Shown here: one piece after another, positions 1 through 21,062 of the stretch
How the letters are laid out: each line of letters opens with the position of its first letter
How positions within the stretch are numbered: the first letter of the stretch is position 1
Assembly (NCBI GenBank): GCA_000310025.1
Contig: FN648476.1
Location: 14,584 to 38,233 of the forward strand
Origin: Ectocarpus siliculosus
Taxonomy: Eukaryota > Sar > Phaeophyceae > Ectocarpales > Ectocarpaceae
Reading direction: 5' to 3'
Length of the DNA: 23,650 bases
Notes under the pieces: model-generated
Told to the model about the DNA's origin: nothing
Databases searched by the model: none
The model's input: the letters and a program-made list of their open reading frames with translations, nothing else
Program-made: the position numbers and the translations under genes

Positions 1-2378
1 TTTACTACAAGGAGAGAGGGGACGGGAACCGAACTTGTACATTGCACAAAATGTGAAAACTAAACGAAAAAATGCAGACGTTGCTTGATGGTTTGTGGCG
101 CCTCTGTTTGAGACTTTTTTTTCGTCCTCCACCCGCCGATCGGCGTTGTTGTTCGTGGGTATCATCAGTGTTGCGCTTGTTTTCTTTTGTCATGGTGAAT
201 CTTTCGAAGATCACGTTGTTTCTCCGGACACTTCGGGGGGGGGGGGAAGTGTCGGTTGTTTCTACTCCCCCCCAGCCTTTGCTTTCTGCTTGGGGGGGAC
301 ATCAAGCCAAGACGGCGACATCGCTTTCGTTGTGTAACAATAAGTTTTCGGGTAATAAACGATAAAAGAGTGACTAGACATCATGTTTTTCCCTTTAGCG
401 CCGCATGACTGCTGCGTGCGATCGGAGCTCCTCACAACGGCTTGCTGCTGTTGCGTGTGTTTGTTTCCCAATTTTACTGTCATCTTTTGCACACCCCTTT
501 TCTGCGTTTCCAATGGTCTTGGAGTGCTTGGAAGCTAAAAACGTGGCGTTTTGTTTTGGGTTCGTGCTACATGTAGTTAGCACAGCACCGCATAGATACC
601 TACGAAGCGGCAGTTAGGGGGGCGTGATAGCGTTCGGCATTAGTATCTCACGCTATTGTACTAGCCTTGCATTGGCAAATTAACAGTCGTTAATGCTCTT
701 TTAATCTTGGGTAACACTTCCGGTGTGGCCGGGATTTTTTTTCTCAAAAGCTGGAGAGATGTGTCTCGCGCCGGATGGACGACGCGGCAAAAATCATCCG
801 CGGCACATGCCTACTGCTGTTTTGTTGCTGTCGTTTTCTTTCGCTCAGCGCGAGAAGGACAGAGCGAGCAGCATTAGCAGTTGGTCGGCGGTTCCTCCCA
901 GAAATTTCTTTCGGGCCGAGAGAGCGCTCTCTCTCCTCTAGTTCACTGCCAGGCGAGAATAAATTGCGACACCAACCTAAATAGATTCGAACTTATCATC
1001 CAGAAACTGGTTCAACGGCGGGTGCATGCATGCATGCTCCCGTGTGTCGTGATGATGACGCAAGCGTGCCACTAAACGATGCCGGGTATTCGGCGAAATT
1101 GGATCCTCATGTGAGAAGACGCCAGTCTCTCTCGTAATCGAGACAATGCTGCTGTTCCATGTATAGATGACACGGGATTGCCGGCGAACCGAACCGGAGA
1201 AGACGGTCAACCCCAGTGAACGGCGTACAATAGAGATCAAAGTGTTTGCAGCACACCCCTCGCCTTCACGTGATGCGAAAATCCAGAGCCCTTCTCTCAC
1301 AAGAAACAAAGTCAAGCCGAACAGCCCAGGCACGAACTCTGCAGGACCATTGTATTCTCTCAGCAAGCATTCACCCATGATGAACAGACGCAGCGCATCC
1401 CTCCGGGCATTTGGATTTTATCTCGAGACGGGCACTACATCCTTCTGTGATCTCTGATCAGATGTACATTAAACATGCTAAAACTAAAAAATACGGGGAA
1501 AAAAACTATGTTGTGGCGGGGTTATCGTGAAAGGCGTCGGGCTTTAGTTGAGGCCGGGGAGGTTTTGTTTCCCTTACAGTGGGGGGCCCCGGATGAGGTG
1601 GTCGTCCTGTATGAGGCGGGTGAGAGACTGTCTGTGGCATATACGGAAGAATCACTAAGCATTCGAGGCGGCTGCCCCTTCCTGATAAGGCGGTCATTAT
1701 CAGCTGCCACATCACTGTCTTATTCGGGTACCCACACTGCTGTACCGTAGGTGGTCTGGTCGATGAAGTCGGGACTGATGTCTTTGGAAGCTCGGGTGAA
1801 AAAAAAACGAAAGAAAAGCAGCAGCAGCTTTTGCTGCTGCTGCTTTGATCGAAATGCTCAGTTTTACGTGCAGAGCCCGTCTAGCGGCTTAGGTTCCACC
1901 TCTCATCATGCCGAACACGCTTCGCGAGGGAAAAAGAACACCCCCTGGCTGCTCTGCTCCTTACCGCCAAAGAAAAGCTGTCTTCTCGCGTTCGTACGAC
2001 CAGGCAGGCCAGGCCCGACAACTCAGACGTTGAGTTACCCAGACGTACGGCACCATCCCACTTTCTCTATCATCTGCAGATCCGACAAGCCAGCCCCGTA
2101 TCTACTTCTAGAACATGAACAACAGGCCAAGAAGGACAAAATGAGAGAGAAGAGATTCCGCCAGGTTACATCAAAGCCAAAAAAGATGGATCTTCTAGGC
2201 GACAGACATCCTGTTTCGTCTCATGATCTCCAACTCACCCAAACCTTCCTCCCCCATCAGAAAAAGAAAGCAAACACACCACACACACGCAAGCAACCGC
2301 AACACCCCAAACACTGGTCGATTGCAGCGGGAGTGAGTGAGTGAGTGAGTGCGAGTCCCCCCCCCCCCCCAAAAAAGT
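1..2378. other. Non-coding flank, probable 3' UTR and 3' flank of the MoeB-like gene
   Basis: I see no supportable gene here. Open frames exist on both strands (up to 197 codons at 1751-2344 plus, 133 codons at 977-1378 minus), but they have low-complexity composition, no recognisable domain and no splice partners. The stretch holds homopolymer runs (G at about 236-246, C at 2357-2370), a GTGA repeat just downstream of the stop codon of the minus-strand gene (2331-2352) and a perfect CAG/CTG hairpin at 1815-1846. Brown-algal 3' UTRs are often long, so the part next to 2379 is likely the 3' UTR of the minus-strand gene; this is inference. Confidence 0.5.
1815..1846. repeat. Perfect CAG/CTG inverted repeat
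   Basis: A 14-bp arm AAAGCAGCAGCAGC (1815-1828) is followed by a TTTT loop and its exact reverse complement (1833-1846). On either strand the RNA would fold into a perfect 14-bp hairpin. It lies about 530 bp downstream of the stop of the minus-strand gene, so it may be in that gene's 3' UTR. No function is known. Confidence 0.7.
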
Positions 2379-8504
<6,126 letters not shown>

Positions 8505-9458
8505 GAGGCGATGAGTGCAACAAGCTGTGAATGCGTTAGTGTAGTCCCGCCGCGTCCTCCCCCGAAAAGGCACTTTGTCGGTGGAGATGCCTGCCATCGT
8601 CCGAACAGAGCACACGGATAAGAAACGGGGTAGGTGCTCCACCACCAATAGCGTCGCCGAGAGATTGTGGCGGTCAGGTGGCAGCCGAGAGGCAGGGAGC
8701 AGCAGCAGAGTCCATGTTTGCCAACGTGGGGGGGGCGCAGAAGGGATATATCTGCTCAATAGCTCGCGGGCGGGGGGTGGGGGGGGGCAATTTGTAGAGA
8801 TGATTTTCGCTTTTCCCTGCTGCTGCTTTTTTTCCCGAAAAAAAAAAACCCGGCACTGGATTATGCATGCAGGAGCCAGCCAGACACGTAACAACATCTT
8901 TCAAACTCGATTCCCGTCCCGCATCCGATTCTGGGGAAATTTTTGCGGTTTACTTTCCCGTTCCGGTTGGGTGAATAGATGCGGGAATCCCCATGGTGGT
9001 TTCAAACTTGCCCTCCCGCCTTTTTTCGGATTTTTTTCACGGCCGAATGCCAACCGCCGTTCGTTCGTTCCGCGCTTTGCTACTTTTTCTGGTGCACGAA
9101 CAAACGTGAGGAGAACGCCCGGCTTTGGAGTTGAGTCAGAGGGCACACAGCTTTGGATTTCTCACTCGACAGACCACCTTTTTCTTTCGAGCTGAAAACT
9201 GCTAGGACATGGCATCCTACCACCGCTCACTGACTGCTGCTCTCTATCTATCTATCTATGCATTGAGCGTACAGGGAGGGGCAGTGGTGTGTGCTGATAA
9301 AACGACATCAATCAAGGAGAGAGAGAGCAGCAGCAGCAGCAGCAGCGGCGGCAAAAGAAATCCGTTGCGAAGTTCGTTCGGCTCTCTCTGGACATCCCCT
9401 GTCTTCCCCAAAGTTTTTTTCGACTTGGTGTTCTGGCAAGTAATAAGTGCATTTCAGG

Positions 9459-9767
9459 TGTATGTATGTATGTATGTATGTATGTATGTATGTATGTATG
9501 TATGTATGTATGTATGTATGTATGTATGTATGTATGTATGTATGTATGTATGTATGTATGTATGTATGTATGTATGTATGTATGTATGTATGTATGAATG
9601 TATGTATGTATGTATGTATGTATGTAGGTATGTATGTATGTATGTAGGTATGTATGTATGTATGTATGTATGTATGTATGTATGTATGTATGTATGTATG
9701 TATGTATGTATGTATGTAGTATGTATGTATGTATGTATGTATGTATGTATGTATGTATGTATGTATG
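9459..9767. repeat. TATG microsatellite, about 309 bp
   Basis: Nearly pure TATG units with a few interruptions (for example ATGAATG near 9595, two TAGG variants near 9627 and 9647, and a one-base loss near 9719). The long YVCMYVCM frames on both strands are translations of the repeat, not proteins. The interruptions indicate an old, slowly degenerating array. Confidence 0.97.
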
Positions 9768-9795
9768 GCATAGACCGCGCTAACCGGCTGACCAA
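9768..9795 (+). repeat. 28-bp dispersed repeat, copy 2
   Basis: Directly abuts the 3' end of the TATG microsatellite and matches 3931-3958 (inverted) with one mismatch. Its position next to a simple repeat suggests it may be the end of a mobile element that carried the microsatellite. Confidence 0.7.
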
Positions 9796-10083
9796 AAGGT
9801 GTGCTTCATTCAGGTCTTGCAAAACGGGGAGAATTTCTGATAATATAAAGTCTATATATGTATGGGGAAAAAAGCACATATCTATTATATGAAAACACGC
9901 GGGAATTGACTCTTTATTATACGAAAACAGACGCCACGACGCCACAACGATTCCCGCGCCGAAAAAACGAACAGCCCGCCACCGCTTTCAAACTCAAAAA
10001 GGCGGGGATTCCCGCATATATATTTCTGGATTTTCACGTGCTGAGTGCCCGCATGCGGGAAGCGGGAATCCGAGTTTGAAAGA

Positions 10084-11937
10084 CGTCTATTGGAGCAACA
10101 TTCATTGCTGCTGCTCATTCCTGTGACCCCCTTACGCACAGAGCGGCTTGATCCAAGAGGAAACGAAGACAGGCCCCAGAAGGAAGGCAGAATCCAGCCT
10201 CATTCTGCTTGCGGTCGCGTTTATTCAAGGTTGCAAAGAAATAAAGAGAGGTGAGAGAGCCTAATGCGGGGGGATGGAAGATCCTCCGCGCGCGGACTTC
10301 TCGTCGACGGGAGCAAGCAGAAATATGTATGTTGTGCAGAGATTAGAGGTTTCGTATGTATGCAAGAACATTGGGAAACGCGGCGGGAAGCCCCCCGAAG
10401 AAGTTTGGCGCGTGACTTGACAGCTTGACTTGTTCGCTCACCCCGCCACGCGTGTGTGATGAGCTGAGCTCTGTGTCGAGGCTTGTTGATTCTTTTTCCG
10501 TTCTCTTCTTTGGCATCTGTGGTCCGTCCGGGCTACAACAACATGTCAATTTGTAGCCTTTTCTTGCTGAACGGATCGCCGCGCGTTGTGTCCTGGAAGA
10601 CCTCCTGGGACCACAGACGACAGACTTCACTCGTTTGTATCTCTTACGGGACAGCAGGGCTTGCTGTCCCTTGCTAGGAACCTTGGTTGGCGCGCGATTG
10701 CATTAACTAAGTTGGTTGACGCTGAAATTATCGGCAGCGGACAGCGGCCTTTTTGTACGTTGAAAGCAAGTTGGGCATTTTTTCGTGTGCAACAATTCAT
10801 CTACTACTGGTGGTATGTGTTATATATAGTTGGTTATAGGGGTAGCCGGGTAAGATACCCGTCTTCCACCGTCCTCTTCACGCATAGACTTTGTACGTAC
10901 AAGGCATGTTGTATTGTTACTCCGGAGTATGCGGCAGGCTGGCTGATCGATGATGATCGGGCGATCGGCACGACGCTCGGGGAGAATCCCTGAAATAAAT
11001 CCTCGTAGTAACCAGACGCAACACAGCAGCAGCACACGCAGACAACATGCGAGACAACAACCAGCACAGCAAGCAGCATACGTACGAGACTATACTGTAG
11101 GCCAAGGGCAGCCAAAAACACACATCACCAGTTGTGACTCTTAGAGCACATTGCCTGCTGCAGCACAAAGCGAGGGACGACGCAGCAAGACAACAATCTA
11201 TCTGCGGTCCGTCTTCCCCATCTGGAGGCCGATCTTTGGAGCTTCCAACATGGACGCAACCCCAAAACAGAGACAATGAGACGTACACACTGCCGTACGT
11301 AGGCCAACGGCGGCCAAAGGCACACATCATGGCGTCGTAAGCGATTTCTAGAGGCGGAGGCCTGCTGCTAGGTATATATTCAGAATATTCCGACCACCTG
11401 GTGCCCAGATTACCGGGATTCCGACGTAGTCTATTCCAATGCGAATGAATGTAGGGAGGTAGCGGTACTACGATGAATGGTCGGTCTGTCTTTGCTCCGT
11501 GTTGCCTGGGAGTCGGCGATAGCGAGCGACTAAGAAAGAAAGGAAATACAAGAAGGGATCGGACTGAAGCGGAGGGGCTCTAACTTGCACACAGTGACCG
11601 GATACGCTCCACACTGCAATCTCGTTACAGCAGACAACGTTGCCGCCAAATGGTAGTGACACAGGAACGATGTCGTTCCGACATTTGGAGAGCTGAAAAC
11701 AAATTTGGTCGGCTTGCATGCATACAGCAGTAACCCCCCCGAGAAGATGAGGAGAAAAGGGAAACAGCAGTGACACAAGACTCAACTCCCTTTTCTCCCG
11801 GTCCAGTATCATGTCGCGGTGTCCTAACCATACCACACGCAGCAGAATTCAGACATGGACGGACACGGAACATTTCAGCGCGCGCATTAGCCCTTAAAAT
11901 TAATTGGTGCTCGTGGCACATTTTTTCTTTGCCGTGA
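10084..11937. other. Intergenic stretch without supported genes
   Basis: No frame here shows a recognisable domain or convincing exon structure. A 9-bp perfect hairpin (GGGACAGCA, 10648-10656, with TGCTGTCCC, 10662-10670) is present. A diverged direct repeat of about 30 bp occurs at 11098-11127 and 11300-11329 (202 bp apart; TAGGCCAA…GCCAAA…CACACATCA). Confidence 0.6.
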
Positions 11938-12200
11938 ACGCCTACCGCCTACCGCCTGAAAAGTACCGCCATATTGCAGTATGTACCGCCGAAGAAGCCG
12001 CCAAAAAACGAAGTACCGGAACCGGCTAAAAAGAACCGCCATATTGCAGTACGGCCAGAAAAGTACCGCCATAATTGGCACTACCGGGAACCGCCAAAGG
12101 CGGTACAGCCGGAAAATGAAATACCGCCTACCGCCAAAAATATACCGCCACATTGAAGTACCGCCCCGCCTGAATCCGCCTAAAAAACTAGTACCGAGGT
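11938..12200. repeat. ACCGCC-rich degenerate repeat array upstream of the LRR gene
   Basis: At least a dozen ACCGCC or closely related motifs occur within 260 bp. They include two copies of ACCGCCATATTGCAGTA (11965-11981 and 12035-12051, 70 bp apart) and diverged ones at 12065-12083 and about 12144-12165. GGCGGTAC also appears inverted near 12099. The array ends about 210 bp before the ATG of the LRR gene, so it lies in its presumed promoter or 5' UTR. Mobile or tandem origin is unresolved. Confidence 0.75.
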
Positions 12201-12410: not shown

Positions 12411-12582
12411 ATGGCTCAGACGGACCGTGCCGCATTGCTTGCCTTATATCACGCGACCGGCGGGCCCGCATGGACTCGCAACTACAACTGGGACACGGAT
12501 TCCCCCATCTCGCAATGGTACGGGGTCACGGTCATCGGAGACCGCGTCGTGAAGCTAAATCTGATGTGCAACAACGTCCAAG
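12411..12582 (+). CDS. LRR gene exon 1: N-terminal cap
   Basis: Encodes 57 residues plus one base, from MAQTDRAALL to the Asn-Asn-Val-Gln-Gly end of a first half-repeat. The aromatic WTRNYNW and QWYGV segments are the capping motif. The donor GTAGCG follows at 12583. An in-frame upstream extension is open to 12225 but contains low-complexity sequence and a likely splice acceptor, so I start at 12411. Confidence 0.85.
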
Positions 12583-15500
12583 GTAGCGTGGGCCCAAACT
12601 CTCTGGCGGTGTGCTTTACCGACTTCGTTGACCGAAAGTTCCCCTTTCTTAGCATGGCAAATTAAGTTTTACAACAAGCCATAAGACGTTGGTCTTCTGG
12701 GTACCTCCCCGTGTTCTGCACGCGGTCTACGCCCGAATATCTCTTGAGCGCATGTTCACCGCCTTGCCAGCATGCTTCGCAAATGATGCTGCCGTCCTCG
12801 TCAAGCGTACGTAGTGGACACCGAAATATTTCGTCTCCTGTCCCAATCCTTGAACACGCCACCTATCACATACCATGGCATTGAATTTCCTGGCTCTCAA
12901 GTGGCTTTGGTACGCGGGGGACATTCGGTATCACTTCTTTTACATGGCTCTGATGCGTGGCATGTTGTACTCTGGAGCCTTCTCGACCACGAACCCATTC
13001 ATTTGCTGTCGCTTGTTGTAGCGATGCCTGCAAGCTTGTCGCGAATACTTGTGTATTCCGCCGTCCATTATGTTTGCCGGACGGCAATCTTGTACTCATG
13101 GGGCAATTTTACATAGTTTTCGTGTCATAAACGACACCTTCTTAGATCCTCTGTTGCCGAAAAGCTTATTGCTGTGCAGCAAAAGTGTTTTCAGCTCTCT
13201 GGGAGCTCCCACCCCTGCAGGGATGGGTGCACGAGCAACACAGCTCGCGGGGAGGGAGGCGTACTCATGTTTTGCATGCCTCAGCTGTTAGACCGTTGAC
13301 CACGCGTCCACGGATGGACGGAGCATTGTACCCACAAAGCCGATCACCAACGGCCAATCGTTCCTTCCTACGTTGCCGAGGGTGGCTTAAAATACTTTTC
13401 TATCCTATCAATCCTACATATGTTTAATGTATCGATATCGCTTCCCCCCTTTCTATTCCCCAGTGTAGCTTTCGTTTTCTCCTGGCTTTTCTATGCCTCA
13501 AACAGCTCTCTTAACAACTCCCTTGAATTTGTCCCAGTTCAGTCATTTACATCTCCCTCTCTCCTTTTCGTAAAACGGACATGCTTCCAACACATGAACC
13601 CGGTCTTCGCACTCGGAGCGGCATTCACACTTGAACTTGTCGTCGTCTTCGTCTACCTTCCCAAAAGTTCGTCTGCGTTCTCGAACGCCAATGTCTCCAG
13701 TACTAAATTTGACCAGCTTTGTCCCTGCATCCATTGGGGCATGCAGGTCCTCCTTCAACCCAACTCCTTCTTCCAACATTCCGTACACATCTAAACCTTG
13801 CTTATCCTTGGTTTCTTTGAGTTGATTCCGTTCTTTTCTATCGGGAAACAACAGTTACCGCCCTCTTCAACCCTAGTAGTCCTACCGTTTCCAGTGTACC
13901 GACTTCGTCAATGTCGAACCCCTTGCATATATCCCCTACTTACACCCCCACTCTGCTGGGTCCTCACAATCCTCGTTGCACACACTTTCAGCGTTGGTAG
14001 ACAAGCTCCACTTATCCGCGAAACTCTTCCCTGCGTCCATCTGCAGTTGAAGTCCCTCAAGGGTATCATACATCCCTACAAAATCGTTGTGGAACAGCAT
14101 CCCCGACATTTAAGTTTTCCCTACCTTAACTCCCGTCCGAACCGCCTCAACGACTTTCAACAACTCGTTGATGAACACCGATACACTGTTGGGGACAAAG
14201 TGAAACCTTGTGGAACCCCTTAAACCAATTTTGAAGAGTGTTCATAGTTCTCCATCTAGCATCACGGCGCTTTTCGTGCAGTTGGCAACCTTCTTCAGCA
14301 CCCTCCACATTTCCCCCTTTATCCCTTATTTGGACGTTGTTTCGAAAGCCCGTTTCTCCATACCGTATCGTATGCCGTATTTCACGTCCAAGAACAAGCA
14401 GTACGGCGGCAACCCCACCCTCTTCAAACCCTAGATGGTTCTCCCTAGCATAGTACGTGGTCTACGCACCCCACCTTACGTCGGAAGCCTGCTTGGTTCT
14501 CACTTATCCTACCTTCCTTCTCCATTACTCTGGGAGCTGACTCTATCATTCAGCAGGTTACAGAACACTCCCACCGTATTCAACAGCGTGATCCATTTAT
14601 GTTCCTGAATCAGTCTTAATCTCCCTTCTTGAACAAGTTCACAACCACCCTTTTCCCTCCATCTTCTCGGCGCGTACTCATTTTTCCGCACCAAGTTGTA
14701 CAGCAGCACCATCAGCTGGGTCACTCTCTTCCCCTCACTCTTCATGGATTCGTTGACTATCCCACCCGGCCCTGCTACTATGGCACTGCACAAAAGTCAC
14801 AACATGTTCTCAATGAAATCCTTCTCTGTACCTCTATCTTCTCAAATCCTGCCTTCGATGCCTCTTCTTCTCCTTGGACCCATGTGCCCACCTCCTTCTT
14901 AAACACGTGGTCAACAATCTTCATTTTCCTACGGTAGTCTGAGCAATACAGCGGGGGTGAAAGTAAGTGAGAGAGCCTCAGCTGCATGAGTGAATCTCCG
15001 TGATCTCCTGGTAAGCATGTAGCACAACGGTGACGTATGAAATGAGTAAAACACGTCCCATATGTGTGGGCGTTTGCCCCCCGTACGTTGGGATTTATTC
15101 TGAAATTGTTGGGGAACCTTTTCTACGTCGTCGCTGGTTTAGACCAAGCCAGAATTTAATCAGTGCTGTAGTGTTTTCCAGCTTCAGCGGATTAGGTCGT
15201 TCAGCCAAGACCAAAAATAAGAGTGCAGCGACTTACAGAAAATCGATCCTACCAACACCTTGGCATGCGTCTTGTCGGTTCGCATGAAAACGTGACTTTA
15301 GTGACTCATGGGTTGGCCGGTTTTGATCAAGGTGGAGGCCTTGCAATGCTGCGAGCTCTCCTCTCCCGGGATGGGTCCTGTAGCAACAGAGTAAACACGA
15401 GAGGAGTATAGCACAGTAATCCCCCCGGCGTGTAGAACGTTCATTGCCAACGCGTGGGTGACTAGGTTCTATTTGCTTCGCCATGCAGGACGTTTTGTGG

Positions 15501-18500
15501 TAAACGGCGTGAAACCCTTGGGCAAATTAAATCGTTGGACAAGCTCCTAGCCGGTAATGTAACAGTTCCAAAAGCCTACCCTCACCTTTTGTCTTCGCTC
15601 TCTGTTCGTGAACGTGACGACTCACGGAGGCCTGAGCTGTTTCCTTTGTCTTCTCTCTAATCCCCCTCTCTCGAGCTGATGTCTCGAGACCGGGTCTTGG
15701 CGTGGTTGGAGCTGAGATTAATGTACAACCGGTCGCAATACGTTCAAATAACACGACGGCACGTGTTCCGAATGAGAAGTGGACAAGTGTGCACGCGACA
15801 CGTTTACAATGGACAGTGTTTACAGAGTTCTTATTCTTCACGGGGGTGGTTTTGACGAGAAACCGGGTGCTTCGTCGACAGGTCTCAGGCACGAGACCGC
15901 CTCCTCGAAGAAACGTAACGGTTTCGTCTTTGTCGAAGCTTGCGGTTTAACCACGGACGTTTCGGCATCCGTAGGACAGACGAGGGAGCATGCGACCGCT
16001 CTGGATCCCTGTCCTTACTCGGAGTATGTCCCTTACTTAACCCTAGTATCGTGACCAGTACGGAAAATCGCGTACTTGGATTCAGTCACGGCACATCGTC
16101 GTATATAGGGTATCCACACACACCAACTCCTTGGGACTTTTTCCTTCATATGCAAGGAAACAGCATCACAAAGAAATCACTATTTTAAAGACATATTTTT
16201 TCAAGACACGGACATTTTTAGTTTTATTTGGATGTGTCCTTCGTACGTATTATTGCACAGAAACGTTGGTGAGTCTGTCACCACAAGTTCAAGAAACAAC
16301 AATTTGTTGTTCGTATTCAGAGGTCCAGCAATATGCTTGATTTGACTTTCATGTCTGTCTACAGGACACATGCCATCTCTCACCTAGGAAATCTTAGGGC
16401 CTTGGATGGCCTCAACCTCATATTGACAACCAGGTTTGGTTATTTCGACTTCCGTAGAAAGAACAAGTGTGAATGGAATGCAGCGCGTGGTGGGTGAGCA
16501 CGTGGTCTAGTTCATATGATCGTGCGTAGGCCATCACACGTGGTAGAAACAGCCGATTTTATTCTCCGGACTTACTTGCATATCTACAGGAAAAATACCA
16601 CCGCAGCTTGGGGATCTTCGCGCCTTGGAGGCACTGGACCTCAGCTTGAACAAGTTGAATGGTGAGCCCAAGAGGTTGAACAGAGAATCGAGTGATTTCG
16701 GCTTCTGCGGGCAGCGTTGATTTCTAGTGTGCTGAAACCAGAATGACGTTGCCCGCCCCTTATCGGCAAGTTGGTACTCGGACAGCCAGAGCTGCTTCAA
16801 CTCCCTCTAGCCTCCCAGCTCCACTGGGATGCGCCCTGCAAAAATCGGTACAGAGGGTGATGAGACAACGGGTGCACTTTGTAATTTGTTGAAGGGCTGC
16901 CTCATCTCCTTGTAAGATGTGTCCTGCCAACGCATCGGCGGGATTCATTCTGAAATTCCTGTAAACGTCTCACAAGTCAGTTGGTTACGGAGAAGGTTGA
17001 GCTCTCTCAGTGCCGCGAGCTTTCCCAGCTCCGGCAGGTAAAAGCTGCAACCAGAAGAGCCGTTCGAATATTGCGGGGAATGAAAAATGCATTATACCGG
17101 CTGTCTTTATTCTCGATCATCGATCTCCGTAGATCTTGGTCCGCCAATGCGTGGGCAGGACACATGCATATTCTCAACAGAAAAAGCAACCCCAGGAGCT
17201 TGCGTGGGCGTGACATCTGTGTTTCGCACTTATTGTGTGGAAAACTAATCCGCTGCATTTTGATTTTGTCATCTCGCCCTACAAACTCGTGCAGGAACCA
17301 TACCCGAGGCGCTCGGGAACCTCTCAGCTCTGGTTTCCCTGTGGCTCAGCAATAACAGCCTGGAAGGTGATCGAACAATCTTACTTTTCTGAAGAATAAA
17401 TCAAGCAATATGGAACACTATTGTTATTTTTCTAGAACAAGATACGGTATCCGTACATGCGGTTGGCGTTGGCGGGACTGCATCTACGGAGATCGTCTTG
17501 TTCCATAAAAATACGTAACAATGTTCACTTTTGCTCGGTTTGTTCTCAACTGTCAGCTTATTGATCCCCACGTGGAGAGTTTTCAGGGCACCAACGTTCC
17601 CCAGCTCAGGGGGAATGGGACCTGCAGCGCACGCAAAAGTCCAACTTTAGAGAGGTCAGAACGTGGGTCCCGCGGCTTCTAGAACATGTACAGTATCATC
17701 TCCGTATGCATAGATCGCGTCTCGCCCACGCGTTGGGATCCATGTTTACGTTGGTGGTGTTTCTTGATGCGGGGTAATTTTCTTTTGATCCCCCGCCAAA
17801 TTCGCATTTACTCTTCTGCTTGCAGGCCCCGTTCCGCCGCAGCTGCGGAACCTTGCGGCATTGGAGAAGCTCTCCCTACGGAGAAACCAGCTCAGCGGTG
17901 AGTCACTGTTTGGGCACAGAAATGTCTGGTACTCCCCATTTCAAGTTTTGAAGCCTTGGAAGTTGATCGTGAATCCCTTTCGACTTCTACAGAAACACAT
18001 ATTATATGGACGCCGACGCGTGGGCGGGACTGATTATTCGAACCTGATCACAACAAATTTCCGGTAGTTTCCCACTTTTGGTTGTATCTCTGTGCTGAGG
18101 CCGAGTCTTACGTCGTGATTATGTCGGATTTTTTTTGCTCTCGGTCGAGGGGGGGTGGTCTGCAAGGGAAAAATTATCTGGATCCAAACGACCTTCTTAC
18201 TGTTCCTCGAGACAATTTTTTTTCTCAGGGGAAAAAAAGGGTCGATTCAGGTCTTTGTGGGTCACAACATGCTTCAGTTCACAGTTTTGGCTCGTGTGCG
18301 ACCAACAAGACACCGAGTGCCCTGTTTTTGGGTCGCCTCCAGAGGGCATGTATACAATCGCACGCCAGTGACTGCAGTTTGTGGATGTCGTCGGCCGAAG
18401 GCCTCTCTCTGGCATGCGTTGTGGATTGATCACGCTCGGAGCAACCAGAAAAAAAAAGGCAACGTTAAAAAAAGTCAACACCGCAACACACTTCGGTTCA

Positions 18501-20876
18501 CGTTTACAGGCCGTGCGCAATCAAAACTGGACAATACGCTCTGCTTCTGGGACGCGAGCAGAGCGATTGTGTATGATCACACGCCATTGGCAGTAGTTTG
18601 TGGATGTCATCGGCCGAAAGCCTCCCTCTGGCATGCGTTGTGGACTGGTAGCGGGTGACACACGGAGCAAACACGCGGCGGAACAAGAAAAATGTCCAAA
18701 AAGTCAACACCGCAACGCACTTCGGTTCACGTTTACAGGCCGTGTGCAATCAAAACTGGACAATACGCTCTGTTTCTGGGACGCGAGCAGAGGGTATGTA
18801 TATGATCACACGCCACTGGCTGCAGTTTGTGGATGTCGACAGCGTAAAGCCTCTCTCTGGCGTGCGTTTTGACTGGTCACACATATATGCAGCAGGCACA
18901 AAAACGGCTCTTTTCGGCCTAAAGGCAACAACGTCAGCAGAGCAATTTGGCAGGGTTGACGTTATGGGCTCGTGTGCTGCCAACACGACGCAGAACGGCC
19001 TGATTTTTTTTTACCTGCAGAGGGTTTGTGCATGACCTCATGATACTGGCCTCTGTTTGGCCAGCAGACGGTGTAGTTCCTCGTTCTGGCACGATCGGGG
19101 TGTGACCAGGGGGTGACCCCCCCCAATTCCAAACTGGAAATTATCAGCCGATCCTGTTTGGAAAATGGGCCTATTTTCCAACGCGGCAGCTGGGATCCTA
19201 GGAAATATTCGGCGATTTGGAATTTGGGCGTTTGGAATTGGCCAAATTCCTCCGCGTAAGACGCTCAAATAATTATTTGGGCTGAAAAGCCCCCCCCTCT
19301 AAAAGAAAAACCCGAAATAATCACGACGTAAGACTCGGCCTGATCTGGGCAGGGCCGATACCAGAGGAGCTGGAGGATCTCACTGAGCTTAAGGAGCTAT
19401 GGTTGGACAACAACAACCTTACGGGTAAGGGATGCTGGATTCGGCACGATGTCTCCTCTACGTCTCGGGTTGTTTGAACTTGTGGAAACTATGATCTGCC
19501 TATGCGTGACCGGGACACGATCGACGGAGATCGATATTGTACACGTTCTAGAAGCCGCGGAACACACGTCAACGTTCTGACCTCTCTAAAGTTTGACTTT
19601 TGCATGTGCTGCAGTTGAGCTGGGGAACCTGGGTACCCTGACAACACTCGACCTGTGGGGATCAATGAGAACAAATCGAGATTAATTGAACACTCTGTTC
19701 TTGTTTTTTCTACAAGACGGTCTCCGTAGATGCTGCCCCACCAACAACGCGTACGCGGAATTCATGCACGTTCGGAACTCGAAAGAAAAAAAACGCTTTT
19801 CGATCTGTTCAACTCGCTATCTAACTTGTTGTTGGAGGGGTAGCGGTGAAGAGATCAAAAGCGTTTTTTTTTCTGTCGAGCTCTGAACATGCATGAACCC
19901 CGTCCACGCGTATGGGGGATTCATGCATGTCTAGAATTTGAAGGAAAAAAACACGCTCTTCGATCTGTTCAACTCACCATCATCTAACTTTGTGTTGAAG
20001 AGGTTGGGGTGCTCGAGGGCGCCAAGATCTCCTAGCTGCGGTGGGATGGGGCCTGTAGACGAACGAGTCAAAGAAGAGCACTTTGGCGGTGTAAAGCAAA
20101 AATATCCCCCGAGTTCTAGAACATCGGTCCCGCCTGCGAGTTGGCAGGACCGATGGTCTAGAAAATCCGTCATACGTTTGGAAACCGACAATAGAAATAG
20201 TCACGTTGACGCACTCCTCACCGTCAAAGCCTCTGCAGCTGATTTAGAGCTCCTAGCTCTTTGGAGATGTGTCCTTTGCAAGTAGCATATCAGCGGGCAT
20301 ACGAAAGTGAATGAGGGGAGTGCGAAGCTTCTACAACATGTGTCCCGCCTACGCGTGGTGGGAAAATATCCACGGAGATCGACGCCTTAGAATAAATACA
20401 TGTGTGTTCCACGATCCACCCACGAACGGAATGTCCCTTCCCATCCCACAAATACCACCATGCAGGCGAAATCCCGGCGTCGCTAGGAGAACTCGTCAAG
20501 CTGGAAACGCTTTACCTCGGCGGAAACAAACTCAGCGGTAAGTTTCTCCGACAGACTCGGCGCGTTTGCAGCACACCAGATTTAATCCTGCCCGCGCGTG
20601 TGCGGGATCGGTCTTCTAAATCTTACATCGCAACCTGTACTGTCAGGTAACTCCGTAGGAAGAGCAGTGAACGAAATCCACGGCATGGGTGAGCAGGTGG
20701 TATAGTTTATTTGATCGTGCGTAGACCATGACATGTTGTAGAAACAACCGACTTTTCCTTCGGAATTCCAACCATATGCCGTGCTTCGACTTCCTAATCT
20801 ACAGGACACATCCCACCAGAGTTAGGAAATGCTAGCGCCTTGAAGGCACTGGACCTCAGCTTCAACAAGTTGGACG
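12411..20876 (+). CDS. Exon-modular LRR gene (ROCO-type LRR candidate), 5' part, seven exons in window
   Basis: Exons: 12411-12582, 16590-16661, 17295-17366, 17826-17897, 19353-19424, 20466-20537 and 20805-20876, all ending in phase 1, so they join in frame for 201 codons plus one base. The first exon encodes an N-terminal cap (MAQTDRAALLALYHATGG, then a W-x-G segment, then VVKLNL..NNVQG) typical of brown-algal LRR proteins. Each later exon is exactly 72 bp and encodes one 24-residue plant-type LRR of GxIPxxLGxLxxLxxLxLxxNxLxG form. Such proteins bind ligands through the LRR solenoid; in Ectocarpus, LRR-ROCO GTPases with one exon per repeat have been proposed as immune receptors. No ROC/COR, kinase or membrane segment is present, and no stop is reached, so the 3' part must lie beyond the window or be lost. 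The ATG has a strong context (A at -3, G at +4); an acceptor (AG at 12395-12396) 14 bp upstream suggests a 5' UTR intron. Confidence 0.75.
13158..13229 (-). pseudogene. LRR exon remnant M1 (minus strand)
   Basis: Exactly 72 bp and open in the module phase, reading PIPAGVGAPRELKTLL then HSNKLFG, a clear LRR. Both splice sites are damaged: the acceptor dinucleotide reads TG instead of AG and the donor GC instead of GT. It lies antisense inside the first intron of the plus-strand LRR gene. Confidence 0.75.
13300..14990 (-). mobile_element. Degenerate non-LTR (LINE-type) retrotransposon, reverse transcriptase region
   Basis: Minus-strand fragments in several frames together follow the order of a LINE reverse transcriptase. 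A segment before the fingers (about 14937-14778) is followed by GPGGIVNES and NLVRKNEYAPRRW (about 14770-14640), ITLLNTVG (about 14600) and CLFLDV (about 14390). A diverged catalytic box reads FHND (14076-14100) where a [FY]xDD motif is expected. A Cys/His tail motif with CEC, C, H and C (13579-13629) follows. Stops and frameshifts separate the pieces and the catalytic aspartate pair is not intact, so the copy is dead. Its insertion explains much of the length of the LRR gene's first intron. Ends are approximate. Confidence 0.8.
15307..15377 (-). pseudogene. LRR exon remnant M2 (minus strand)
   Basis: After an intact CTACAG acceptor the module starts GPIPG, then a one-base loss shifts it into GELAALQGLHLDQNRPT. 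Length is 71 bp instead of 72. The donor is lost (CATGAGTC where GGTGAGT is expected). A clear but broken LRR exon. Confidence 0.75.
15441..15466. repeat. Palindromic spacer element E1
   Basis: ATTGCC-ACGCGT-GGGTGA core, with outer TAGAAC (about 15433) and GTTCTA (about 15465) arms in inverted orientation. Lies after M2. Confidence 0.6.
16365..16438 (+). pseudogene. Frameshifted plus-strand LRR exon
   Basis: Follows a good CTACAG acceptor and begins GHMPSL, but the second half (LGNLRALDGLNL) lies in another frame: the copy is 74 bp, two bases longer than a module. Its sequence and downstream intron closely match the exon at 20805-20876 and that exon's upstream intron. Inclusion would break the reading frame, so I leave it out of the gene model. 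Confidence 0.75.
16590..16661 (+). CDS. LRR gene exon 2 (module P1)
   Basis: 72 bp, acceptor CTACAG, donor GTGAGC, phase 1 at both ends. Encodes GKIPPQLGDLRALEALDL and the SLNKLNG end. Intact. The exon with both flanking introns is a close relative of exon 7 (20805-20876). Confidence 0.85.
16764..16835 (-). pseudogene. LRR exon remnant M3 (minus strand)
   Basis: 72-bp module after a TTTGCAG acceptor: GRIPVELGG, then an in-frame TAG, then RELKQLWLSEYQLA. The donor reads GATAAG where GGTAAG is expected, so the GT is lost. Dead by stop codon and splice loss. Confidence 0.85.
16921..16943. repeat. Palindromic spacer element E2
   Basis: GTCCTGCC arm, ACGCAT centre, GGCGGGA arm; between M3 and M4. 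Confidence 0.7.
16974..17044 (-). pseudogene. LRR exon remnant M4 (minus strand)
   Basis: Reads LPELGKLAALRELNLLRNQL. The donor TGTGAGA is intact and the acceptor TTGCAG present, but the 5' part lacks one base (71 bp), so it would shift the frame if spliced in. Confidence 0.8.
17139..17161. repeat. Palindromic spacer element E3
   Basis: GTCCGCC arm, ATGCGT centre, GGGCAGGAC arm, preceded by GATCTCCGTAGATC; between M4 and exon 3. Confidence 0.75.
17295..17366 (+). CDS. LRR gene exon 3 (module P2)
   Basis: 72 bp, acceptor GTGCAG, donor GTGATC, phase 1-1. Encodes GTIPEALGNLSALVSLWL and the SNNSLEG end, an intact plant-type LRR with its variable xLxLxx face free of stops. Confidence 0.9.
17431..17507. 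repeat. Palindromic spacer element E4 with long arms
   Basis: The core GGTTGGCGTTGGCGGGAC (17461-17478) is flanked by arms of about 27 bp (17432-17460 and 17479-17507) that are imperfect inverted copies. They contain GAACAAGA and TCCGTA-ATGC. Between exon 3 and M5. Confidence 0.75.
17550..17621 (-). pseudogene. LRR exon remnant M5 (minus strand)
   Basis: 72 bp and open, GPIPPELGNVGALKTL then HVGINKLT, with a good CTGCAG acceptor. The donor reads GTTGAG where GGTGAG is expected, so GT is lost. Together with its flanks it is an inverted relative of the plus-strand remnant at 19615-19673. Confidence 0.85.
17719..17740. repeat. Palindromic spacer element E5
   Basis: GTCTCGCCC arm, ACGCGT centre, TGGGATC arm; between M5 and exon 4. 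Confidence 0.65.
17826..17897 (+). CDS. LRR gene exon 4 (module P3)
   Basis: 72 bp, acceptor TTGCAG, donor GTGAGT, phase 1-1. Encodes GPVPPQLRNLAALEKLSL and the RRNQLSG end. Intact. Confidence 0.9.
18011..18030. repeat. Palindromic spacer element E6
   Basis: CGCCG, ACGCGT, GGGCGGGAC; between exon 4 and the inserted 1.24-kb element before exon 5. Confidence 0.7.
18099..19340. mobile_element. Putative non-autonomous DNA transposon (1.24 kb) with about 40-bp inverted ends
   Basis: The left end GGCCGAGTCTTACGTCGTGA (from 18099) is repeated inverted at the right end (to 19340). Both then continue similarly through an ATTAT-TCGG, a T-rich tract and a run of G. A 3-bp TGA flanks each side (18096-18098 and 19341-19343) as a possible target-site duplication. 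The interior carries about 229-bp tandem repeats and no transposase. A GG start and a 3-bp duplication would suit a PIF/Harbinger-like family, but TGA is not the usual TWA. It sits 12 bp upstream of LRR exon 5 and inside the plus-strand gene. Confidence 0.65.
18229..19030. repeat. Tandem repeat of about 220-229 bp, three to four copies
   Basis: GTGGATGTC followed by GGCCGAA-type sequence recurs at 18381, 18600 and 18829 (spacings 219 and 229). GTCAACACCGCAAC followed by TTCGGTTCACGTTTACAGG recurs at 18474 and 18703. The first copy (from about 18229) and a fourth (about 18890-19030, with GGCTCGTGTGC…CCAACA) are more diverged. Open frames across the array come from a unit with few stops and show no domain. 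The array lies inside the inverted-repeat-bounded element. Confidence 0.85.
19353..19424 (+). CDS. LRR gene exon 5 (module P4)
   Basis: 72 bp, phase 1-1, donor GTAAGG. Encodes GPIPEELEDLTELKEL then WLDNNNLTG. The acceptor AG (19351-19352) is present, but the upstream 12 bp join directly onto the end of a putative transposon, leaving a poor polypyrimidine tract (GATCTGGGCAG). The exon may be spliced less efficiently or skipped; skipping would keep the frame. Confidence 0.75.
19495..19518. repeat. Palindromic spacer element E7
   Basis: TCTGCCTATGCGTGACCGGG followed by ACAC; diverged copy, with GATCGACGGAGATCG just after it. Between exon 5 and the truncated exon at 19615. Confidence 0.55.
19615..19673 (+). 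pseudogene. Truncated plus-strand LRR exon
   Basis: After an intact GCTGCAG acceptor the module begins at VELGNLGTLTTLDLWG. Compared with the related minus-strand module at 17550-17621 it lacks about 12 bp at the start (the GPIP part) and about 12 bp near the end, including the donor region. Not usable as an exon as it stands. Confidence 0.75.
19733..19767. repeat. Palindromic spacer element E8
   Basis: TGCCCCACC arm, ACGCGT centre, CGGAATTCATGC arm, preceded by TCTCCGTAGATG; between the truncated exon at 19615 and M6. The right flank resembles that of E9. Confidence 0.65.
19818..19856 (-). pseudogene. LRR exon fragment M6 (minus strand)
   Basis: Only the 3' third of a module remains (SNNKLDS followed by ELNRSK-type intron sequence); the donor reads GC instead of GT. 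With its flank it is a direct tandem relative of M7 (19978-20052). Confidence 0.65.
19889..19928. repeat. Palindromic spacer element E9
   Basis: ATGCATGAACCCC on the left and GGGGGATTCATGCAT on the right around GTCCACGCGTAT: a 40-bp near-perfect palindrome between M6 and M7. Confidence 0.85.
19978..20052 (-). pseudogene. Intact-looking minus-strand LRR exon M7 (orphan)
   Basis: A 75-bp module (one extra GAT codon at the end) with acceptor GTCTACAG and donor GGTGAGTT both present, phase 1-1. It reads GPIPPQLGDLGALEHPNL then FNTKLDDG. It is the only minus-strand module with open frame and both splice sites. Without a minus-strand partner gene in the window it is an orphan exon; a minus-strand transcript could in principle use it. 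Confidence 0.7.
20114..20163. repeat. Palindromic spacer element E10
   Basis: Left arm TTCTAGAACATCGGTCCCGCC and right arm GGCAGGACCGATGGTCTAGA pair almost completely around TGCGAGTT. This 50-bp palindrome is the clearest example of the family's outer arms; between M7 and M8. Confidence 0.85.
20222..20273 (-). pseudogene. Truncated LRR exon M8 (minus strand)
   Basis: GHISKELGALNQLQRL followed by TGA; only 52 bp between an AAG acceptor and a GGTGAGG donor, so about 20 bp of the LRR is deleted and the frame is broken. Confidence 0.75.
20341..20363. repeat. Palindromic spacer element E11
   Basis: TGTCCCGCC, ACGCGT, GGTGGGA, preceded by TTCTACAACATG and followed by CCACGGAGATCG; between M8 and exon 6. 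Confidence 0.75.
20466..20537 (+). CDS. LRR gene exon 6 (module P5)
   Basis: 72 bp, acceptor ATGCAG, donor GTAAGT (the best donor in the gene), phase 1-1. Encodes GEIPASLGELVKLETLYL and the GGNKLSG end. Intact. Confidence 0.9.
20585..20608. repeat. Palindromic spacer element E12
   Basis: ATCCTGCCCGC, GCGT, GTGCGGGAT, followed by TTCTAAA; between exon 6 and exon 7. Confidence 0.7.
20805..20876 (+). CDS. LRR gene exon 7 (module P6)
   Basis: 72 bp, acceptor CTACAG, donor GTGAGT, phase 1-1. Encodes GHIPPELGNASALKALDL and the SFNKLDG end. Intact and the last plus-strand module I can find; the following intron runs past 21 kb and no further plus-strand exon is recognisable to the window end. Confidence 0.9.
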
Positions 20877-20990
20877 GTGAGTCCAGGAGGTCGGATGGCG
20901 GAATTAGCTATTTCGACTTCTTCTTCTGTAGAAGCAACAGTGATGAATCCCACACACCTACACGTGCAAAATGATTGCCACTCCTCTCAC

Positions 20991-21062
20991 CTGCGAGTTG
21001 GGTGGTGGTAAGGTCAAGAACCGTGAGCTCCGCAAGGATTCCCAGCTCTTTAGGGATGGAAC
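20991..21062 (-). pseudogene. LRR exon remnant M9 (minus strand)
   Basis: 72 bp and open: GSIPKELGILAELTVLDL then TTTQLAG, with an intact donor GGTGAGA. The acceptor is lost (CTCGCTG where a CAG is expected). It lies antisense in the intron after exon 7. Confidence 0.8.

Follow-up and report, generated by a model that had tools for sequence, protein, structure and literature searches.

Imperfect palindromes in the LRR-exon arrays of Ectocarpus siliculosus look like the joints of an exon-shuffling system

Small coding cassettes bounded by recombination sites are known from bacterial shufflons and integrons, and at the hix and gix sites of serine invertases strands are exchanged at a two-base core, the outcome being inversion. 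In V(D)J recombination the signals are heptamers and nonamers with 12/23 spacing. To our knowledge, symmetric recombination sites on either side of single receptor exons have not been described in any other eukaryotic system. In brown algae, somatic recombination of receptor exons has been a standing question since 2012. For the ROCO genes of these algae, the available part of PMC11378527 reports exon shuffling and alternative splicing, and states that neither site-specific recombinases nor somatic recombinant loci were known or reported in brown algae as of 2024; no word beginning 'palindrom' occurs in that text. The 90-bp LRR exon arrays of Tetrahymena are like those described here in their uniform LRR exons, phase-2 introns and massive exon shuffling, which its authors explain by ectopic recombination and retrotransposition (PMC6564038, available sections); both uses of 'palindrom' in those sections belong to the name CRISPR. 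A search of the open-access literature, with Zambounis 2012 outside its scope, found no description of palindromes such as those reported below.

The window, the whole stretch of 23,650 nucleotides that was analysed, is C80:14584-38233 of an assembly of 189 Mb in 492 contigs. According to the original prediction, each of the eleven gaps of an LRR-exon array at 16764-20876 contains one imperfect palindrome (E2 to E12). A consensus-seeded profile, trained partly on window sites and for the most part on sites from other loci, detected nine full palindromes of at least 9 bits inside this interval; in 200 shuffled controls of the interval the number averaged 0.145 and never exceeded 2. None was detected at this threshold, with the same profile, in window positions 1-12000. 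Nine of the eleven predicted sites therefore stand as full palindromes, E8 being weak and E4 being reduced to a half-site. E2 (16920..16945; 31.6 bits) and E3 (17137..17162; 25.0 bits) are full palindromic joints with core GC, the first being among 31 strict genome-wide matches and the second having a left end common to other loci. Core GC is also found in the palindromic joints E5 (17718..17743; 14.9 bits), E6 (18006..18031; 24.1 bits), E9 (19896..19921; 20.1 bits), E11 (20341..20366; 19.9 bits) and E12 (20584..20609; 24.6 bits). E7 (19492..19517; 16.8 bits) is a palindromic joint as well, and E10 (20126..20151; 24.8 bits), a strict match, has the mixed core GA. At E8 (19734..19764, profile start 19737; 7.4 bits) two half-sites are separated by the 5-nt spacer AACGC in place of the usual 2 nt, and at E4 (about 17467..17479, plus strand) a single right half-site of 17.4 bits is present, the left half (0.7 bits) having been lost.

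The mixed orientation of the LRR exons in the array was borne out by exon scoring on both strands. With a threshold of at least 17, the scorer recovered nine of the twelve modules or remnants named in 16764-20876; those that it missed are too decayed for it. Intact exons were located on the plus strand at 16592..16663 (score 27 of 27), 17297..17368 (27), 17828..17899 (26), 19355..19426 (26), 20468..20539 (27) and 20807..20878 (25). Decayed exons were located on the minus strand at 16762..16833 (score 17, with a stop), 16972..17043 (22), 17548..17619 (22), 19979..20050 (20) and 20989..21060 (24, counted as not intact). One gap of the array contains a separate transposable element (18099-19340), which we take to be PIF/Harbinger-like; its terminal inverted repeats start with GGCCGAGTCTTACG, it has a 3-bp duplication TGA (TAA at the copy in locus L027), and at least 46 further genome-wide matches with 81-94% identity are listed. 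Elsewhere in the window, a microsatellite at 9459-9767 (unit TGTA, 77.5 copies) gives spurious open frames on both strands. What may be the first coding exon of the LRR gene, N-cap-like in character, lies at 12411..12590 on the plus strand, its end being approximate; it was recognised from the translation read by eye, and no Pfam family was found for it.

The specificity of the palindrome was assessed across the genome with a strict search pattern describing the palindrome alone, which contained no LRR information and allowed at most three mismatches. Across the 189 Mb it matched 31 sites, its reversed control matching nothing, and LRR exons were present in the fetched flanks of all 31. A second pattern, in which the core was left free, gave 45 sites genome-wide and 3 in its control. 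Of these 45 strong palindromes, 43 are at 72-nt LRR-exon loci, mostly arrays with both exon orientations, the exceptions being C10:408609 and C51:81405; at L039 the exons are on a single strand, and at L014 and L051 one or two exons are found in the part read. A looser pattern returned 528 matches genome-wide versus 318 in its control. That census is swamped by chance, and the confinement to LRR loci holds for strong copies. The strong palindromes are concentrated in LRR arrays and are not spread through introns, so that the original prediction survives the test by which it was to be refuted. It had also been suggested to look for them in TPR exon arrays. All 45 sites are more than 100 kb away from each of the 27 listed NB-ARC matches, and at one NB-TPR locus, of which 3 kb was read, there is no palindrome. 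TPR loci do not seem to be involved. A viral origin of the site was considered and set aside, there being no exact match to it in viral contigs.

Mixed and one-directional arrays were compared by position, using clusters of at least three exon matches among the first 100 of 242 listed places. A strict or second-pattern site was present in three of five mixed LRR clusters (four of five with the looser pattern counted) and in one of five one-directional clusters; a further cluster, on C8, with its exon orientations in the ratio 6 to 1, has no site by either of the two patterns. One-directional LRR arrays are situated at C1:3304k, C3:6318-6374k and C9:5989-6015k. The mixed array at C4:4685-4690k also has no strict or second-pattern site, though it has cassettes in common with L025. 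Among 165 exon gaps, 52 are without a full palindrome, and these retain both half-sites in 11 cases, one in 22 and neither in 19.

The unit of rearrangement extends from palindrome centre to palindrome centre and has a half-site at each end. Such a cassette consists of an LRR exon, half an intron on either side and a 12-bp half-site at each end, the consensus of which, read outward, is (G/A)TNGGCGGGAC; a joint is 26 bp long and is composed of two inverted 12-bp half-sites around a 2-base core. Exactly one LRR exon is contained in 82 of 91 centre-to-centre intervals of 140-420 bp (none in 7, two in 2), and the one-exon intervals have a median length of 236 bp. The median distance from exon to centre is 93 nt on the 5' side and 67 nt on the 3' side, values with which the median exon gaps fit according to orientation: 133.5 nt tail-to-tail, 162 and 173 nt in tandem and 195 nt head-to-head. 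Unlike ends are joined in 46 cases, two 3' ends in 35 and two 5' ends in 27. The outer arms noticed around some window palindromes (TTCTAGAA, CATGCAT, GATCTCCGTAGATG) fall outside the shared palindrome. Two types at least, GATCTACGGAGATC and TTCTAGA, belong to the ends of cassettes of particular families.

Cassettes were found in 27 pairs of at least 80% identity. In 17 of these pairs neither flank is related, in 8 one flank is unrelated and the other intermediate, and in 2 the pairs resemble each other on one side; in 11 of the 27, one cassette has the opposite orientation to the other. The best pair, 99.6% identical, is on contigs C26 and C4, inverted and with unrelated neighbours. Ordinary tandem duplication of exon-intron units is disfavoured by such near-identical cassettes with unrelated flanks and free orientation. 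A block of the L024 array is duplicated (1466-2989 and 5568-6813, about 80% identity); its copies differ by one cassette, and in the second copy a joint is eroded with loss of a half-site. One of the two original suggestions was that exon and palindrome move together. The exon does move, but the palindrome is not carried whole; it is made at the joint.

Reading the sites of L025 and L027 in order showed that left and right arms behave as separate labels: a given arm is found again and again next to one exon type, and its opposite arm varies. Breakpoints were then defined from cassette ends that are at least 90% identical outward and have different partners, which yielded 90 pairs in 23 clusters, 76 of them between different loci and 40 on opposite strands (a set of 67 pairs represents an earlier version of this comparison of like ends with unlike partners). 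On the cassette side, identity is 0.89-1.00 at positions 2-12. On the partner side it is near random (0.51 vs 0.56 at position 2, 0.26 vs 0.25 at position 4) and exceeds that level at positions 7 and 13. Both sides have position 1 in common (0.82 and 0.81, random 0.70). Since similarity stops at the centre and position 1 is equal on both sides, the exchange point is placed at the central two bases.

The ends of sequence alignments point to the same place. In 370 alignments inside arrays, 142 of 740 ends are, in each of the two copies, no more than 15 bp away from a centre, stretches this close to a centre making up 7.4% of the arrays. When one array was searched against the whole genome (453 matches; ends from the matches listed, at least 85% identity), 100 of 180 listed ends were at query centres, with 15.1 expected, and for five arrays at least 10 kb distant from those chosen by palindrome the figure was 39 of 70, with 5.9 expected. 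Several of the remaining ends are at joints missed by the profile, for example L025:5585, a perfect palindrome of another half-site type. The breakpoint and alignment-end tests thus support, at near base-pair resolution, the earlier suggestion that the palindromes are break or recombination sites. It looks as if they mark the exact points where single LRR exons parted and rejoined in either direction, in what would be an undescribed exon-shuffling system.

We consider it probable that site-specific breakage and rejoining at the 26-bp palindromes, with a two-base stagger, shuffles the LRR-exon cassettes, a model based on one genome assembly. A protein would recognise the 12-bp half-sites and cut the core with a two-base stagger, presumably leaving a 2-nt overhang, and ends with matching cores would be rejoined. 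With a symmetric site, one reaction could bring about inversion, excision or insertion of cassettes. An excised cassette may serve as intermediate; its reinsertion into another array, followed by segregation, would lead to near-identical cassettes on different contigs, and receptor diversity would be the putative benefit. Splicing uses gene-oriented cassettes only, and 72-nt exons can be included in any number with the frame kept.

The composition of the joints is consistent with separate recognition of their halves. The core of 140 joints is GC in 106, TA in 16, GA or TC in 5 and other in 13; homotypic cores dominate, though 3-nt mixed-type spacers occur. Symmetry between the arms is clearly above chance only at position 1 (z 9.0). 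Weak coupling is seen at two further positions, 9 (z 2.8) and 12 (z 1.8-2.0), and the arms are independent at positions 2-8, 10 and 11 (119 and 140 joints). Independent arms together with a coupled core argue against hairpin pairing and in favour of two half-sites read separately by a protein, with a match required at two bases.

A variant of the model, which we regard as quite possible, replaces the self-religating recombinase by a site-specific nuclease (e.g. a domesticated transposase) that leaves 2-nt overhangs for host end joining. When the half-sites were located separately, the spacer between them was 2 nt in 109 of 141 joints and 3 nt in 21, and there was one 4-nt spacer, TAGC. The 3-nt spacers GTA (6), GCA (4), TGC (4) and TAC (3) account for 17 of the 21. 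These, like TAGC, are what would result from joining a GC overhang to a TA overhang with the loss of one base or of none; some joints have lost bases at the core. Typing of the halves by homology, which is error-prone (10 of 30 TA halves typed as GC) and unreliable for heterotypic ends, agrees with this for GTA, GCA and TAC (9 of 9 typed halves) and for TAGC (2 of 2) but fails for TGC (1 of 6), and the precision of the 2-nt spacer in most joints also speaks against end joining. We take the 3-nt spacers as a hint of it.

Alternatively, the cassette could itself be a small element of transposon type, bounded by 12-bp terminal inverted repeats and inserting into palindrome cores; the 2-base core would then be its target duplication. 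Its inverted half-sites at both ends, the near-identical copies on different contigs and the two-base length of the core would suit such an element. We nevertheless think it unlikely: equal cores at the two ends are predicted, but cassettes that combine a GC end with a TA end (16 of 91) outnumber those with TA at both (2 of 91), which argues against a target duplication, and a mobile element would be expected elsewhere in the genome, when only 2 of the 45 strong sites are outside LRR loci. A MITE with target duplication is likewise disfavoured by the unequal end cores.

If homologous recombination of the ordinary ectopic kind were at work, or unequal crossing-over among the repeated introns, the palindrome would be a conserved passenger. 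Ectopic recombination is the published explanation for LRR exon shuffling in Tetrahymena (PMC6564038, available sections), and the duplicated block of L024 would be in keeping with it. However, the breakpoints concentrate at the centre and are not spread over the shared intron sequence, half of the joints are inverted, and near-identical cassettes have unrelated neighbours, so that we hold this explanation to be very improbable here. Finally, the palindromes might be hairpins in the introns, formed as RNA or as a cruciform, or regulatory sites that have nothing to do with the rearrangements. The long imperfect palindromes of copies such as E9 and E10 lend this idea some appeal, but it is scarcely credible: at nearly all of positions 2-12 each arm varies without regard to the other, so that pairing is not maintained, compensatory arm changes as expected of an RNA or DNA hairpin function were not seen in 119 and 140 joints, and the breakpoints coincide with the centre.

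As to the enzyme behind site-specific breakage and rejoining, serine (PF00239) and tyrosine (PF00589) recombinases gave one genome-wide match each, and neither is a dedicated gene. For PF00239 the match is a broken insertion of IS607 type, though a gene that is divergent or split by introns could escape such a search; for PF00589 it belongs to an abundant mobile family. The IS607-type serine recombinase (L053, C16:5122087) adjoins a TnpB/Cas12f-like frame and is probably of giant-virus origin. For the tyrosine recombinase family (L054, C76:55437), 150 of 480 first-look candidates were scored, and all of them matched.

The palindrome-bearing genes are of the same kind as the brown algal ROCO genes, with which they share 72-nt LRR exons, ROC downstream of some arrays and hypervariable sites 14, 16, 18 and 19 (PMC11378527, available part). 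At the palindrome loci, the 72-nt exons have AG/GT borders. Roc matches numbered 54 genome-wide, and ROC domains were found beside four mixed palindrome-bearing arrays, in reading direction, at C15:2430101+, C11:4822709+, C5:1693304- and C483:68593+. Because the ROC domains adjoin them, these four arrays are ROCO receptor candidates. Together with the 72-nt exons and an insertion of giant-virus type, the neighbouring ROC domains point to a brown alga. No ROC match was found on C80, the contig of the window, so ROC adjacency holds for other arrays. Of the 182 exon substitutions that distinguish the cassettes of 26 near-identical pairs, 115 are in codons 14, 16, 18 and 19, which corresponds to 115 per 312 sites in these four codons versus 225 per 4300 sites in the intron halves. 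The same four codons are the LRR sites reported as positively selected in brown algal ROCO genes in the accessible text of PMC11378527. The contrast with the intron halves is strong enough to ask whether mutation is also targeted there. The four variable codons lie on the concave face, as seen in L025, L027, L044, L049 and others.

The arrays differ in the state of their exons. In the window, all six scored exons on the plus strand are intact and none of five on the minus strand, one of which (13156) is outside the array; at L024, 17 of 20 and 2 of 16 are intact by strand. Both strands are largely intact at L025 (11/12 and 6/6), L027 (7/8 and 9/10), L044 (5/5 and 6/7) and L049 (4/4 and 8/8), arrays of this state being those at C15:2424-2428k, C26:5007-5011k, C234:43-46k and C4:2034-2037k, and all eight cassette pairs of at least 95% identity are among L019, L025, L027 and L049. 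Since its antisense exons are decayed and the closest cassette pairs are at other loci, the window array is probably old, and L019, L025, L027 and L049 are probably more active. Old and young arrays seem to coexist in the genome. Antisense exons would be expected to stay intact only if they are flipped often.

More tentatively, and with considerable doubt, the shuffling could be a programmed, enzyme-driven process, germline or somatic, that builds LRR receptor repertoires in a brown alga through inversion, excision and insertion at 26-bp palindromic sites without polarity, as an independent counterpart of V(D)J recombination. If this were true, the arrays now active would be those with both strands intact (L025, L027, L044 and L049). 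The joints provide candidate cis-acting sites at base resolution, and the question of somatic recombination thereby becomes directly testable.

Compared with known systems, the joints share with the hix and gix sites of serine invertases a 26-bp imperfect palindrome, 12-bp half-sites, a 2-base core and the occurrence of inversion. They differ in being located in eukaryotic introns, with many sites per array and cores of GC or TA; deletion and movement between contigs occur here, and no serine recombinase gene was found. Bacterial shufflons and integron cassettes are alike in that small coding cassettes flanked by recombination sites are shuffled and inverted, whereas the cassettes described here are single eukaryotic exons with half-introns, and their symmetric sites are formed at the joint. 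With V(D)J recombination, they have in common signals beside receptor coding segments, at which breaking and joining take place. The site consensus, however, contains no heptamer or nonamer with 12/23 spacing, and here the joint retains the signal, with no cut in the exon.
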